Origin: Bacteroidetes bacterium SW_9_63_38 | Lineage (GTDB): Bacteria; Bacteroidota; Rhodothermia; Rhodothermales; Salinibacteraceae | Length of the DNA: 64,000 bases | Direction of reading: 5' to 3' | Assembly (NCBI GenBank): GCA_003022435.1 | Contig: PXUA01000001.1 | Coordinates: forward strand, 1-64,000 | Shown here: in pieces, positions 7,277-59,510 of the stretch | Position numbering within the stretch: position 1 is the first letter of the stretch | Layout: each line of letters begins with the position of its first letter | The notes under the pieces: generated by a model | What the model was told of the DNA's origin: nothing | The model's database searches: none | The model's input: the letters and a program-made list of their open reading frames with translations, nothing else | Position numbers and translations under genes: made by a program

Positions 7277-7729
7277 ATGCTGACTGTCCGCGACCACATC
7301 GATATCGCCGCGTCGGTCGAGAAGGCGTTCGCGTATATGGACGCCCCCGCCCACCAGACAGATATTACTCCCAGCCTTACTCGGTCGTCTCTCGTTGAGC
7401 GGCTTCAGAATGGCGGATCGCGGGCCGCATACACCTACCGTGTCGTCGGCCTTTCCCTTTCCGGGGAGGTCCGCGCCACCGACTACGTGCCGAACGAACG
7501 GATCATCTGGACGATGTCGGGCGCCCTCCAGGGCACAATCCGATGGTACTTTGCGCAAAGCAACACCTCGCACACTCGATTCACGTACGCCGCTACGTAC
7601 GCCCTCCCGGGACCCGCCGTGCTCCATCCCGTACTCACCCCTCTCGTGCGGCGCTACAACGAACGTGAACTGGCACGTCTCCTGCGCAACTTGAAAGCAG
7701 AGTTGGAGAACAGGCCCTCAAACGTGTAG
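7277..7729 (+). CDS. SRPBCC-fold (polyketide cyclase/START-like) protein
   Basis: 150 residues with the opening typical of SRPBCC/Polyketide_cyc2 proteins (VRDHIDIAASVEKAFAYMD), a central beta-rich region (TDYVPNERIIWTMSG) and a C-terminal amphipathic helix. The fold forms a hydrophobic ligand pocket; the ligand is unknown. It follows ccmF by 43 nt on the same strand and may be co-transcribed with it. The next gene downstream is more than 800 nt away. Confidence 0.7.
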   Translation: MLTVRDHIDIAASVEKAFAYMDAPAHQTDITPSLTRSSLVERLQNGGSRAAYTYRVVGLSLSGEVRATDYVPNERIIWTMSGALQGTIRWYFAQSNTSHTRFTYAATYALPGPAVLHPVLTPLVRRYNERELARLLRNLKAELENRPSNV

Positions 7730-7927
7730 ATATCGTAACTTCCTCTTCTTTTCTCGAGCCTGTTGGGAAGGAAAAGATGGAATCTTTTTCGCCCTTCTCG
7801 TCTACAAGGAAGTAAATTTTCGAGATCGTCCCGTTCTCTGGAAAGCCTCCGGACCGGGAGCGCTTTCTTTCGGGTCTTCGGGGGGATCTTCCGCTTTCAG
7901 TTGCCATACATTTCCCGTCCTCTGCAC

Positions 7928-7956
7928 TTGACAGGAAATGCTGCATCCCTTTACGT
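7928..7956 (+). promoter_or_regulatory. Candidate sigma-70-like promoter for the ilv leader
   Basis: A perfect TTGACA at 7928-7933 is followed, after 17 nt, by TTACGT at 7951-7956. The -35 box is exact and the -10 is weak. A start near 7963 would place the leader ORF start at 7994 about 30 nt downstream. Inference from consensus only. Confidence 0.4.
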
Positions 7957-7993
7957 GGGACCATCCTCCGTTACACAACCCTTTGTGCTCGCG

Positions 7994-8272
7994 ATGTGTA
8001 CCACACCCGACCAGACGACCACGTCGGCCTCGGGGGCTTTCGCCCCGACTCGGGGGCGTACGGCGACGAGCACAAGGGCGATCACACTTGAAGGGATTGC
8101 CGATCCGGGACGAGTCCCCCGAGTTACGGGGCTCGTCCTTCTTCTTATTGTTGCGATTCTTCCGGGCTACCGATCCGTGAAAACGTACGTAAACCATTTT
8201 TCCCGAGAGATGCGGACCGCGTACAGCCGCAAGCAAGAAGCGGAGTTTACAAACTTATTCACGTATCGGTAA
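7994..8272 (+). CDS. Candidate ilv leader ORF with Leu/Val/Ile codon run
   Basis: A 92-codon ORF starting ATG at 7994. It opens Thr-rich (MCTTPDQTTTSAS). Codons 46-55 read CTC GTC CTT CTT CTT ATT GTT GCG ATT CTT, that is Leu, Val and Ile in nine of ten positions. This resembles the control-codon run of enterobacterial ilv leader peptides. It could instead be a tiny membrane protein, since the run is also a hydrophobic segment. Against a classical leader: it is long, and the stop lies about 110 nt beyond the codon run. Confidence 0.35.
   Translation: MCTTPDQTTTSASGAFAPTRGRTATSTRAITLEGIADPGRVPRVTGLVLLLIVAILPGYRSVKTYVNHFSREMRTAYSRKQEAEFTNLFTYR
8030..8152 (+). promoter_or_regulatory. Putative transcription attenuator of the ilv cluster
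   Basis: Four segments can pair in exclusive ways. Segment 1:2 is a hairpin TCGGGGGC-TTTC-GCCCCGA at 8030-8048. Segment 2:3 pairs ACTCGGGGG (8048-8056) with CCCCCGAGT (8116-8124), nine perfect base pairs. Segment 3:4 is the terminator at 8108-8138 plus U-rich tail. Forming 2:3 removes the 5' arm of the terminator. The logic is that of amino-acid operon attenuators; folding was done by eye only. Confidence 0.45.
8108..8152 (+). terminator. Rho-independent terminator-like hairpin in the ilvB leader
   Basis: GGACGAG (8108-8114) pairs with CTCGTCC (8132-8138), and CCCC (8116-8119) with GGGG (8128-8131), around a short loop with a single bulged T. The tail TTCTTCTTATTGTT (8139-8152) is U-rich. 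The position inside a leader, some 400 nt before ilvB, favours a regulatory (attenuator) terminator. Confidence 0.5.
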
Positions 8273-8275
8273 CAG
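8246..8275 (+). promoter_or_regulatory. Shared promoter-like motif upstream of ilvB
   Basis: TTTACA at 8246-8251 and TAACAG at 8270-8275 are separated by 18 nt. The intervening ACTTATTCACGTATCGG is nearly identical to the motif at 108-124 before accA, and is related to 42226-42242 before the 94-residue acidic protein gene. It could be a second ilvB promoter downstream of the attenuator. Confidence 0.35.
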
Positions 8276-8280
8276 CCGGC

Positions 8281-8461
8281 GGCCAATCCCTTCACCTCGA
8301 TGACTCCAGGCATCGTGCGTTGCTGAGGGGATTGGCCCCTCCGGAGAGGTTTTTCCCCTCCGACCGATGCCTGCCCCCGTCGAATCATGATGCGAGGTTC
8401 TTGAAGCGTTCGCGAGATCCGAAGCAGATCTCGATGCCTCCTGGGGGCGATGCAGGCATGC
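8281..8461 (+). promoter_or_regulatory. Second block of competing hairpins before ilvB
   Basis: GGCCAATCCC (8281-8290) can pair with GGGATTGGCC (8328-8337). AGGCATCG (8308-8315) can pair with CGATGCCT at either 8365-8372 or 8432-8439, which interleaves with the first stem. A small CCTC/GAGG hairpin (8338-8349) is followed by five T. CGAGATC (8413-8419) pairs with GATCTCG (8427-8433). Such dense exclusive pairing suggests a regulatory leader; no known riboswitch or T-box core is recognised. Confidence 0.4.
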
Positions 8462-8549
8462 TGGCACGGATTTGGAGTTCGGTCGGGCCGGAAGTCGCAG
8501 TGTGCATCCACACGTGCGCCGCTCTCCACACGATAGGTTCCTGCTACCA

Positions 8550-10340
8550 ATGCCTTCCAAGACCCTGCAGTCCAACGAAGCCGCCGCCACCGCCAACGGG
8601 GCGACGGACGCACCGACCCTCAAGGGCTCCGAGATTTTTGTTCGTTCCCTTGAAGAACAGGGCGTCGACCGCGTTTTCGGGCACCCCGGCGGCGCGGTGA
8701 TCAAGATCTACGACGCCATGGAGCGGATTCAGCCCTCCTTCGAGCACGTGCTCGTCCGGCACGAGCAGGGCGGCACGCACGCGGCGGAGGGCTACGCGAA
8801 GGCCACCGGCCGCGTCGGCACGGTCCTCGTCACCAGCGGCCCCGGGGCCACGAATACCGTCACGGGGATCGCCGATGCGTACATGGACTCGGTGCCCATT
8901 GTCGTCTTCACCGGACAGGTACCCACCCACCTGATCGGAAACGACAGTTTCCAGGAGACGGACACGACCGGCGTTACTCGCAGCATCACGAAGCACAACT
9001 TTCTGGTGCGGGACGTCCATGAGCTGGCGCCGACCATTAGGGAGGCCTACCACATTGCTCGTACCGGCCGGCCCGGCCCGGTCGTCGTCGATATCCCGAA
9101 GGACGTGCAGATGAATGAGGCGCCGTTCCACTACCCGGACGAGCCCCACCTCCCGGGCTACAGCGTACCGGGCAAAGCCGCCCCAAAGCAGATCGACCGC
9201 GCGGCCAAGATGATCCAGGATGCAGAGCGTCCGCTTCTGTACGTAGGCGGCGGCACCATTAATGCCGACGCCCCGGAGTACCTGACGGAGCTCGCCCGGA
9301 AGACGAACATCCCGGTCACGACGACGCTGCACGGGCTCGGCGCCTTTCCGGAAACCGACGACCTGTCGCTCGGCTGGCTCGGCATGCACGGCTTCTATCA
9401 CGCGAATCAGGCCGTGCAGAACGCCGACCTCATTATGGCCGTGGGTGCCCGGTTCGACGATCGCGTGACCGGCAAGGTGGACGCCTGGGCTCCGAAGGCG
9501 AAGATCATTCACGTCGACATCGACCCGTCGTGCATCTCCAAGAACGTGTACGCGGACTGCGCCGTCATCGGCGACGCCCAGAAGGTGCTCCAGCAGTTGC
9601 TGCCGAAGGTGGAGCCGAAGGACACCTCCGACTGGCTCGACCAGATTGAGGGATGGCGCGACGAGTGCCCGCCCTACAGCTACGAGGACCCCGAGGAGGA
9701 TAAGCTGGTTGCCCCGCAGCACGTCATTGAGCAACTCTATGAGAAGACAAAGGGCGACGCGGTCGTGGTCTCGGACGTGGGCCAGCATCAGATGTGGACG
9801 GCTCAGCACTACAAGTTCGGGCGGACACGCTCCCACATCACGTCCGGCGGCCTCGGCACGATGGGCTTCGGTATGCCGTCGGCGATGGGGGCCGCCTTTG
9901 GGATGCGCGAAGGGCGCGACCTGCCGGTGGTCTGCATTAGCGGCGACGGCGGCTTCGTGATGAACGCGCAGGAACTCAGTGTGGCCGCGGCGCACGGCCT
10001 TCCGCTCAAGATTGCTGTGCTCAACAACGACTTTCTGGGCATGGTGCGGCAGTGGCAGTCCCTCTTCCACGATGATCGCTTCAGCCACACCGACCTCAAG
10101 TCGACCAATCCGGACTTCGTAAAGCTGGCCGAAGCGCATCACTGCGTCGGACTGCGGGCGACCTCGAAGGACCAGGTCGACGAGGTCATTGAGGAGGCTT
10201 GGTCTATCAACGACCGGCCCGTGCTCATGGAATTCCCGGTGCCGAAAAAGGAGATGGTCTTCCCGATGGTGCCGTCCGGAGCCGCCAGCGACGAAATGCT
10301 CACTCGGATGTTCGACAAGGAGGAGATGGCGGCGGAGTAA
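8550..10340 (+). CDS. ilvB: Acetolactate synthase large (catalytic) subunit
   Basis: Condenses two pyruvates to 2-acetolactate, or pyruvate with 2-oxobutyrate to 2-aceto-2-hydroxybutyrate: the first common step of valine, leucine and isoleucine synthesis. The 596-residue protein has the ThDP-enzyme order: N-terminal PYR domain (GVDRVFGHPGGAVIKIYDAM, catalytic Glu in VRHEQGGTHAAEGYA), a central FAD-binding domain, and a C-terminal PP domain with the ThDP motif GDGGFVMNAQEL through NNDFLGM. The ATG at 8550 was chosen because the upstream open frame shows no family similarity. It heads the ilv/leu cluster and is followed by its regulatory subunit gene. Confidence 0.95.
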   Translation: MPSKTLQSNEAAATANGATDAPTLKGSEIFVRSLEEQGVDRVFGHPGGAVIKIYDAMERIQPSFEHVLVRHEQGGTHAAEGYAKATGRVGTVLVTSGPGATNTVTGIADAYMDSVPIVVFTGQVPTHLIGNDSFQETDTTGVTRSITKHNFLVRDVHELAPTIREAYHIARTGRPGPVVVDIPKDVQMNEAPFHYPDEPHLPGYSVPGKAAPKQIDRAAKMIQDAERPLLYVGGGTINADAPEYLTELARKTNIPVTTTLHGLGAFPETDDLSLGWLGMHGFYHANQAVQNADLIMAVGARFDDRVTGKVDAWAPKAKIIHVDIDPSCISKNVYADCAVIGDAQKVLQQLLPKVEPKDTSDWLDQIEGWRDECPPYSYEDPEEDKLVAPQHVIEQLYEKTKGDAVVVSDVGQHQMWTAQHYKFGRTRSHITSGGLGTMGFGMPSAMGAAFGMREGRDLPVVCISGDGGFVMNAQELSVAAAHGLPLKIAVLNNDFLGMVRQWQSLFHDDRFSHTDLKSTNPDFVKLAEAHHCVGLRATSKDQVDEVIEEAWSINDRPVLMEFPVPKKEMVFPMVPSGAASDEMLTRMFDKEEMAAE

Positions 10341-11205: not shown

Positions 11206-12249
11206 ATGAAAGTTCACTACGACGCCGACTCCTCCATCATTCAAGACAAGCAGGTGGCCGTGATTGGGTACGGCAGTCAGGGCCATGCCCACGCGCTCAA
11301 CCTCCACGACAGTGACGTGGACGTGGCCGTAGGCTTGCGCGATGGCTCCTCCTCCCGCGAGAAGGCCGAGCAGCAGGGCCTCACGGTGATGGGCATTTCC
11401 GAGGCCGCCGAGTGGGGGAACGTGGTGATGTTCCTCATCCCCGACCAGCACCAGAAGGACGTGTACGAGGAGCACCTCGCAGACAATATGACCCCGGGTA
11501 CGGCACTGGGCTTCGGGCACGGCTTCAATATTCATTACGACCGCATTGAGCCGCCCGAGGTCGTGGACGTGTTTATGGTCGCACCGAAGTCGCCCGGCCA
11601 CCTCGTCCGGCGCACCTACACAGAAGGCAGCGGCGTGCCGTGCCTCGCCGCCGTCGCCCAGGACGCCTCCGGCGGCGCCATGAAGCTGGCCGTGAGCTAC
11701 GCCGACGCCATCGGCGGCACGCACGCCGGCGTTATCGAAACCACGTTCAAGGACGAGACCGAGACGGATCTCTTCGGCGAGCAGGCGGTCCTCTGCGGCG
11801 GCTCACAGGCGCTTATTCAAGCTAGCTTCGAGACGCTGGTCGATGCCGGCTACCCCCCCGAGCTCGCGTACTTCGAGTGTATGCACGAGCTGAAGCTCAT
11901 CGTCGACCTCTACTTCGAGGGTGGGCTGGAGTACATGAACTACTCCATCAGCGACACCGCCGAGTACGGCAACTACACCCGCGGCCCGCGCGTTATCGAC
12001 GACGACGTGCGGGAAGAGATGCAAGACATTCTGGCGGAAATCCAGTCCGGCGAGTTCGCCGACGAGTGGATCGAAGAGTACGAAAACGGAGCTCCGAACC
12101 TTCTGGAGGCCCGCGAAAACCTCAAGGAACATCAGATCGAACAGGTGGGGCGGAAGCTCCGCGGCATGATGCCCTGGCTCGACGGCGACGACGGATCGGA
12201 GGACGGCGAAGCTGCCGACGCCGAAGAAGCCGCCACGGAATCCGCATAG
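11206..12249 (+). CDS. ilvC: Ketol-acid reductoisomerase
   Basis: Isomerises and reduces acetohydroxy acids with NADPH and Mg2+, the second common branched-chain step. The 347-residue protein starts with the Rossmann motif [16 protein letters not shown]. It continues with the KARI knotted domain, including metal-ligand regions ([22 protein letters not shown] and the Glu-rich [16 protein letters not shown]). Length fits class I. The last 25 residues are an acidic low-complexity tail. It lies 77 nt downstream of ilvN in the same transcriptional direction. Confidence 0.95.
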
Positions 12250-28199: not shown

Positions 28200-28255
28200 G
28201 CACTCCGTCGTCACATCAGATCGCAACTCGTTAGTCGAGATGCGCGCATCAACAT

Positions 28256-28870
28256 CTAATTCTGGTTTTGCTCTTGCTCCTCCTGCTTCAGGCGCTGGAT
28301 TTCGTCGCGCAACTCGGCGGCGCGCTCGTAGTCTTCTTCGTCGACAGCCTCCTCCAGCTGTTTCTGCTTACGTTCCAGCTCGGTGCCGCCGGCTTCTTCT
28401 TCCTCTCCCCCGGCCGAGGCCTCTTCCGCCTGCTGGGTGATGGAGGAGATGCCGGACTCGTCCTCGGCTACGATGCCGGCCTCGTCGAGCACCATCGGCG
28501 CCACGTAGATGGGGGCGTCCACGCGCACGGCGAGCGCCACCGCGTCGCTGGGTCGTGAGTCGAGCTGATGCTCTTCTCCGTCGTGCCGGTACCGAATCTT
28601 GGCGAAGAACGTGCCTTCACGGAGCTCATCGATGACGACCTCCGTGACCTCCACCTCCAGTTCCTCAAACGTGTCCCGCAACAGGTCGTGCGTCATCGGC
28701 CGGGGCGGCTGGATCTTCTCCAACTCCAGCGCAATTGCCTGTGCTTCGAACGCACCGATGATGATCGGTAGACGGCGATTCCCCTCTACTTCGCCCAGCA
28801 CGAGCGCGTAGGCGCCACCGCTGGAGGGACTCGTAGAGAGACCGATGATGTCAACGCGGGTAAAATCCAT
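28256..28870 (-). CDS. Bifunctional nuclease (BFN/DUF151) domain protein with UVR motif
   Basis: 204 residues: an N-terminal BFN domain (VDIIGLSTSPSSGGAYALVL, RLPIIIGAFEAQAIALELE, RPMTHDLLRDTFEEL, DSRPSDAVALAVRVDAPIYV), then a Glu-rich linker, and a C-terminal UVR-type coiled segment (LEEAVDEEDYERAAELRDEI). DUF151 proteins of plants show RNase and DNase activity; the bacterial role is poorly known. The UVR motif usually mediates binding to UvrB or Clp-type partners. The start is taken at 28870 because the open frame upstream lacks similarity. Confidence 0.82.
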   Translation of the reverse strand: MDFTRVDIIGLSTSPSSGGAYALVLGEVEGNRRLPIIIGAFEAQAIALELEKIQPPRPMTHDLLRDTFEELEVEVTEVVIDELREGTFFAKIRYRHDGEEHQLDSRPSDAVALAVRVDAPIYVAPMVLDEAGIVAEDESGISSITQQAEEASAGGEEEEAGGTELERKQKQLEEAVDEEDYERAAELRDEIQRLKQEEQEQNQN

Positions 28871-58925: not shown

Positions 58926-59510
58926 CTATACCGTCGGCCCCTCGGCCTCCGACACGCGCGTCTCGTACTCGCCCGTCTTCGTGTTGACGCGGATCACATC
59001 GCCCTCGTTGATGAAGAGCGGCACGTCGACGGTGGCGCCGCTCTGGAGCGTGGCGGGCTTGTCGCCGCCCTGTGCCGTGTCCCCCTTCACGCCCGGCGTG
59101 GTCTCAACAACCTCCAATTCCACCTTCAAGGGCATCTCCGTGCGGAGCGGCTCCTCGGTATCACTCCGGAAGAGAATATCCACACACCCCCCCTCCTTCA
59201 GGAACTCGCGTCCTTCGACCTGATCCGGTGGCATCGAGAATTGCTCGTAGTTCTCGTTGTCCATGAAGTGAAGGCCGTAGTCGTCCTCGTAGAGATACTG
59301 GTGCTCGCGCCGCTCCACACGCACCTCGTCAACCTCGGCCCCGGCCCGGAAGGTCTCCTCCACCTCGTGGCCGTCCTTTACGTTCTTGAGCGTCGTGCGC
59401 ACGAACGCACCCCCCTTACCGGGCTTGACGTGCAGGAAGTCAGCGATCTCCCAGAGATCGTCCTTCCAGATGAACGTCATGCCGTTTCGGAAATCACTGG
59501 TGTCCGCCAT
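58926..59510 (-). CDS. efp: Elongation factor P
   Basis: 194 residues. EF-P relieves ribosome stalling at polyproline. N-terminal KOW-like domain with the modified-loop sequence [12 protein letters not shown]; the tip residue is Lys32, so an EpmA-type lysyl modification (not rhamnosylation of Arg) is expected. Two OB-like domains follow, ending in [20 protein letters not shown]. First gene of efp-accB-accC. Full length. Confidence 0.95.

Follow-up and report, generated by a model that had tools for sequence, protein, structure and literature searches.

A conserved leader of branched-chain amino acid genes in Rhodothermales and beyond that probably acts by attenuation at the start codon

The ilvGMEDA-type attenuators of enteric bacteria combine a leader peptide with Ile, Val and Leu codons, mutually exclusive 1:2, 2:3 and 3:4 pairings of the leader RNA, and a downstream operon for branched-chain amino acids (BCAAs). 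In the erm translational attenuators, a leader ribosome stalled by an antibiotic refolds the RNA and frees a downstream initiation site. Actinobacterial ilvB leaders, including the Corynebacterium ilvB-II motif, carry I/L/V codons that overlap U-tracted hairpins (PMC1262725, PMC10272879), and in the LEU element upstream of actinobacterial leuA the Leu codon run is itself base-paired to the Shine-Dalgarno box as part of a pseudoknot (PMC1262725). In Flavobacterium psychrophilum, which belongs in the broad sense to the same phylum as the bacterium studied here, structured 5′ regions of amino-acid operons were reported with clues that point to attenuation by leader peptides; the main text of that study describes neither a motif nor an A/B/C/E anatomy, and mentions no ilv leader (PMC9723704).

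The leader analyzed here precedes ilvB in a 64,000-nucleotide stretch of the Bacteroidetes bacterium SW_9_63_38 genome, hereafter the window (Table 1). In our judgment it is probably a conserved, ribosome-mediated attenuator of BCAA synthesis, with the initiation of translation as its main point of action. It resembles the ilvGMEDA type in its leader peptide codons, its pairing topology and the BCAA operon that it precedes, but its 3:4 hairpin lacks a U-tract, an additional helix (E:E′) lies over a start codon, and region 1 of the Salinibacter leaders is located upstream of the control codons. With the erm type it would share the opening of a downstream initiation site by a stalled leader ribosome, although the signal there is an antibiotic and here would be a shortage of Leu/Ile/Val tRNAs. 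A BCAA-codon-rich upstream ORF 5′ of ilvB is common to this locus and the actinobacterial ilvB leaders, whereas the U-tracted terminators are theirs and no curated Rfam family matches the element described here. As in the LEU element, a leader with Leu codons is accompanied by a helix that extends to where translation of the following gene begins, except that there the codon run itself pairs and here a separate segment, E, does so.

Table 1. Features of the ilvB leader region, in window coordinates
Feature	Position	Strand	Remarks
Putative promoter, TTGACA...TTTACGTGG	7928..7958	+	predicted from sequence by upstream-motif comparison
Leader peptide ORF	7994..8272	+	92 codons with the inserted repeat, 58 without
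Region A (1), GAAGGGATTG	8090..8099	+	10 bp with B at 8284-8293
Hairpin P1, GGACGAG...CTCGTCC	8108..8138	+	directly 5′ of the control codons
Control codons, CTC GTC CTT CTT CTT ATT GTT GCG ATT CTT	8132..8161	+	9 of 10 are I/L/V
MITE, 104 bp	8168..8271	+	terminal repeats TACCGATNCGTGA, TA target duplication; inside leader stop codon
Leader stop codon, TAA	8270..8272	+	8 nt 5′ of B
Region B (2), GGCCAATCCCTTC	8281..8293	+	pairs with C (13 bp) and with A (10 bp)
Region E, CAGGCATCG	8307..8315	+	pairs with E′
Region C (3), GAGGGGATTGGCC	8325..8337	+	complementary to B
Hairpin C:D (3:4), GAGGGG-ATTGG-CCCCTC	8325..8341	+	self-complementary end of C
Region E′, CGATGCCTG	8365..8373	+	includes ATG (8367) of the next small ORF
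Second small ORF remnant (MPAPVES)	8367..8390	+	seven codons in this genome
ilvB	8550..10340	+	first gene of the ilvB-ilvN-ilvC-leuB-leuA cluster; IlvB used to find relatives

An earlier note on this DNA had proposed a leader-peptide switch of BCAA genes with 1:2/2:3/3:4 logic, based on an ORF with a run of I/L/V codons. The ORF and its run are present, and a switch of this general kind is supported and conserved across Rhodothermales and beyond; the run of nine Leu/Val/Ile codons in ten had, however, been placed one codon off, at 8129-8158, a stretch that starts with GGG and holds only eight. As judged by comparison, nearly all relatives have an equivalent leader ORF, mostly of about 50-90 codons and with I/L/V codons at its end, and in all leaders the stop codon lies a few nucleotides 5′ of B, such that the cognate codons stand shortly before the stop, as in ribosome-mediated attenuators. 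Among the 16 codons that end the leader, 55-69% are I/L/V codons, versus 17-20% in its earlier part. Within these last 16 codons, Salinibacter leaders use CTT for 77% of Leu and ATT for 100% of Ile, versus 10% and 32% in seven genes of the window, a bias that fits either starvation-sensitive codons or a preference for U-rich sequence, both being compatible with the counts, which do not separate them. The run by itself is not a rare feature, because the 64 kb contain four places where at least nine of ten successive codons are I/L/V. Other such stretches are found at 28253-28291 and 59277-59306 on the forward strand and at about 11443-11475 on the reverse strand. Most Salinibacteraceae and Rhodothermus leaders further carry TTGAC about 250 nt 5′ of region B, followed about 20 nt 3′ by a TA-rich/TGG element. 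The names ilvN, ilvC, leuB and leuA reflect our reading of the translations.

Downstream of the codon run, the relatives share a common order of segments, in which the I/L/V-ending leader ORF and its stop codon are followed by B, a loop containing E, then C, whose self-complementary end forms the C:D hairpin, and E′. Region A, located within the leader ORF, is nearly identical to C, and A and C compete for B; its sequence is constrained, as it also encodes Gly-Ile codons. The helix E:E′ encloses the C:D hairpin and covers the next start codon. We assessed these helices by a swap test, in which each arm is scored with its own partner and with the partners of other genomes, using one genome per genus (18 genera) or, more strictly, one per family (10), relatedness being not fully removed in either version. 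All four helices exceed the swapped pairings over the 18 genera and in the stricter version alike: A:B with p=5e-5 and 8.5e-4, respectively, B:C with p<5e-5 in both, C:D with p=1.5e-4 and 1.1e-3, and E:E′, that is, E with the start-codon region, with p=1e-4 and 1.7e-3. No significant pairing was obtained with control windows displaced by 40-160 nt or with a more upstream region. In an alignment of 29 hits, 8 of the 13 B:C pairs show two-sided changes, and the covariation score was reached by none of 500 shuffles. A:B and B:C, which share B, are thus mutually exclusive covarying 1:2 and 2:3 helices, as in ribosome-mediated attenuators. For matches outside the class Rhodothermia we use, by inference, the name Flavobacteriaceae-type; in 12 such genomes B:C is strong, A:B and C:D are moderate, and E:E′ is marginal (p=0.044).

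What, then, would the switch control? No genus among the 18 has at least 5 T in the 8 nt after the C:D hairpin, so that the 3:4 hairpin is not the U-tracted intrinsic terminator of the ilvGMEDA and trp type. Instead, each of the 18 genera has its E′ either overlapping a start codon or directly next to one, the gene being ilvD in some and ilvB in others, as in the arms GCATAGT:ACTATGC over ilvB and GCGCATGG:CCATGCG over ilvD. In Rhodothermus the pair is CTTCACAGGC:GCCTGTGAGG, with E′ covering GCCTGTGAGG immediately 5′ of the start of ilvB. In Salinibacter, the family f14 and the genome G031, E′ lies over the start of a second small ORF. The partner of the start region, E, is located 3′ of the leader stop codon. 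A helix that sequesters a downstream initiation region, as in the erm type, is therefore found in the 18 genera and is marginal in the Flavobacteriaceae-type leaders. Opening of the start region is predicted to cost 11.1 kcal/mol without B and 6.7 kcal/mol with B, the cost dropping in 18 of 19 cases, and shuffled B accounts for only 0.5 of the 4.4 kcal/mol drop; almost no opening effect is predicted for two genera (G106 and G029). Because no U-tract follows C:D in any of the 18 genera, translational attenuation fits better than a terminator, and sequestration of the start codon appears the better candidate for the output of C:D and E:E′.

Classical transcription attenuation, in which C:D or another downstream signal would end transcription unless B:C forms, is nevertheless the alternative to be weighed most seriously. 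Its 1:2, 2:3, 3:4 topology is that found here, the clues at amino-acid operons in the main text on F. psychrophilum point to leader peptides (PMC9723704), a Rho-dependent ending is possible, and the window copy carries five consecutive T at 8350-8354, which it alone has among the copies compared. Yet a terminator leaves the covarying helix over the start codon unexplained, in addition to the U-tract that C:D lacks in every genus. The control codons, placed in region 1 in ilvGMEDA- and trp-type attenuators, lie in the window 3′ of region A, whereas in Flavobacteriaceae-type leaders A is inside the codon run and region 1 does contain them. On balance, we regard termination as the output as unlikely.

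Alternatively, the RNA could sense the BCAA supply without ribosome stalling, either as a riboswitch or as a leader that binds protein (T-box, ppGpp or another ligand), an idea to which the conservation of the B and C sequences beyond the needs of pairing (GGTCAATCCC / GGGATTGACC) lends some appeal. A search against Rfam 15, comprising T-box, leader families and riboswitches, gave no match at the gathering score and only chance hits at permissive thresholds, and an I/L/V-rich ORF ends at B almost throughout; the constraint on the A sequence, moreover, is due to the Gly-Ile codons that it encodes. Sensing of this kind is very unlikely.

The earlier note had located the regulated terminator further upstream, in a hairpin whose U-tract would be the codon run itself. 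The hairpin (P1) and the U-rich stretch that follows it do exist, and the layout of a codon run overlapping a U-tracted hairpin is not new in itself, I/L/V runs that overlap terminator hairpins being described 5′ of actinobacterial ilvB (PMC1262725, PMC10272879). However, a terminator at P1 cannot sense the control codons, because its decision falls while the RNA polymerase is still on the U-tract, before a ribosome could read them, which is to say that the codons in the U-tract are untranslatable before the termination decision. The region 7700-8600 contains two terminator-like sites versus 1.4 expected in shuffles, which is no excess. Counterparts of P1 in relatives have a mean folding z of -1.26 (18 genera), and its partner-swap p is 0.03 over genera, the test within Salinibacter giving no significance, such that support for P1 across genera is weak to moderate; it may perhaps serve as a pause hairpin. 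On account of this weak conservation and of its logical blindness to codons not yet transcribed, P1 was rejected as a regulated terminator. The pairings that were to accompany it fared no better. The hairpin at 8030-8048, named as stem 1:2, exists, as does the perfect complementarity of 8048-8056 with 8116-8124, named as 2:3; neither the hairpin nor the 9-mer occurs in any of the 17 relatives' leaders, and a perfect 9-bp pairing arises by chance in 7% of shuffles of 7994-8167. Both stems were rejected as not conserved and near chance. What relatives conserve is the codon run and a different set of helices, built from region A and from the segments B, C, D, E and E′ (8281-8373), all absent from that note, as is the 104-bp mobile repeat; A falls within the interval that it covered, 7928-8272, and the other segments lie at or beyond its end. 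Regulated termination at P1 is highly improbable. That the ORF encodes merely a small membrane protein, with the codon run as its transmembrane segment and no regulation, is scarcely credible: an ORF of 50-90 residues does carry a hydrophobic run close to its C-terminus, but between genera its N-terminal part shows no evident relationship, in contrast to the covarying RNA pairings, the end of the run is invariably located shortly 5′ of the stop codon and a few nucleotides 5′ of B, the CTT/ATT bias is strong, and the element lies 5′ of BCAA genes in every match inspected.

As to attenuation at translation initiation, the comparison shows the conserved codon run, the four helices and their placement over the start codon, and the lack of a U-tract, whereas the stalling of the ribosome, the response to amino acids and its direction, and the translational output are what we infer. 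When charged Leu/Ile/Val tRNAs are plentiful, the ribosome would reach the leader stop codon, shield B, and then leave; after its release A:B would form and C would fold with D, and E:E′ would close over the C:D hairpin, burying the next start codon, be it that of ilvB, of ilvD or of the Salinibacter small ORF. When these tRNAs are scarce, the ribosome would stall at the I/L/V run, which lies between A and B, whereupon B would pair with C, breaking C:D, loosening E:E′ and leaving the start codon open. The classical logic applies directly to the Flavobacteriaceae-type leaders, because A is inside the codon run. The Salinibacter leaders need a kinetic argument, because A is upstream of the codons and would not be covered by the stalled ribosome; there, A:B would have to form slowly while the ribosome stands between its arms. 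Rho polarity may contribute on top. Against this explanation, a pseudoknot could accommodate B:C and E:E′ at the same time, no firm role can be given to P1, and the window copy has both the T5 tract and a truncated second ORF.

That second ORF, reduced to a remnant in the window, has 43-64 codons in other Salinibacter and in most cases ends near or overlapping the ilvB start; in a number of leaders (L005, L006, L019, L023 and others) it extends in an open frame from E′ to near or over that start. As a functional peptide it was rejected, since in f14 changes at codon positions 1 and 2 exceed those at position 3, that is, there is no amino-acid selection. Perhaps it is merely a coupling ORF, and in Salinibacter its translation would probably be coupled to that of ilvB.

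The window copy further differs from the other Salinibacter leaders by the MITE, which is absent from them, their stop regions reading ...CCGGGTTAACAG or ...CGGACTAACAA. The insertion adds a net 102 bp, or 34 codons, keeps the frame and restores TAA at 8270, and now forms the last third of the leader ORF; with it present, the pairings A:B, B:C and C:D are all preserved, as is the inner part of E:E′. Nine intact copies, this one counted, and many fragments are found in this genome. Frame 0 of the MITE is open on both strands.

The distribution of the leader was followed with two covariance models, the first built on the B/C region and the second from 29 sequences. The first matched 42 of 114 genomes of the order. 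The second matched 54 of 245 genomes of the Rhodothermia class and, in a sample drawn across the phylum, 35 of 395, of which 12 belong to three families outside the class; it also matched 7 of 40 genomes of the Calditrichota, the phylum to which a genome labelled Caldithrix belongs. All inspected matches lie 5′ of ilvD, ilvB or, once, leuB, and these downstream BCAA genes constitute an independent check, because the model is blind to the downstream gene. Among 80 ilvB loci of many phyla taken as a specificity control, matches were confined to the two from Rhodothermales and that of Caldithrix. The match in G028 is weak, and none was found near ilvB of G027 and G038. Several side observations accompany this survey. 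In G074 the same leader type (L100) lies directly upstream of a leuB-like gene. In Flavobacteriaceae-type genomes (L109-L118), the stretch from C:D to the start of ilvD holds a conserved hairpin, TATATCTGAAG...CAGAGG. Distant IlvB paralogues only, with no close match, and no leader are found in the Salinibacter-genus genome G007, which is 99% complete, and in most genomes of its family that belong to other genera (e.g., G014-G018); such genomes are perhaps BCAA auxotrophs.

A description of this leader was not found in the open-access literature. The broad survey of Lopatovskaya et al. (2010) may have listed some of these leaders, and priority for the flavobacterial part is uncertain. Our confidence is evenly balanced that the leaders form an undescribed family of BCAA attenuators in Bacteroidota (with Rhodothermota) and Calditrichota, with its output at the start codon, a sequestering arm re-formed over whichever gene comes first, and, in the genome studied here, an in-frame MITE absorbed where the geometry tolerates it. 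If so, a single leader design would serve BCAA synthesis in several phyla for which Rfam holds no such system, with control exerted at the start codon and not by an intrinsic terminator. The window copy would add the case of a mobile repeat residing inside a regulatory ORF with the frame, the stop codon and the RNA pairings kept. The family would also offer a simple test of how marine, halophilic and thermophilic relatives of the Bacteroidota sense their amino-acid supply.
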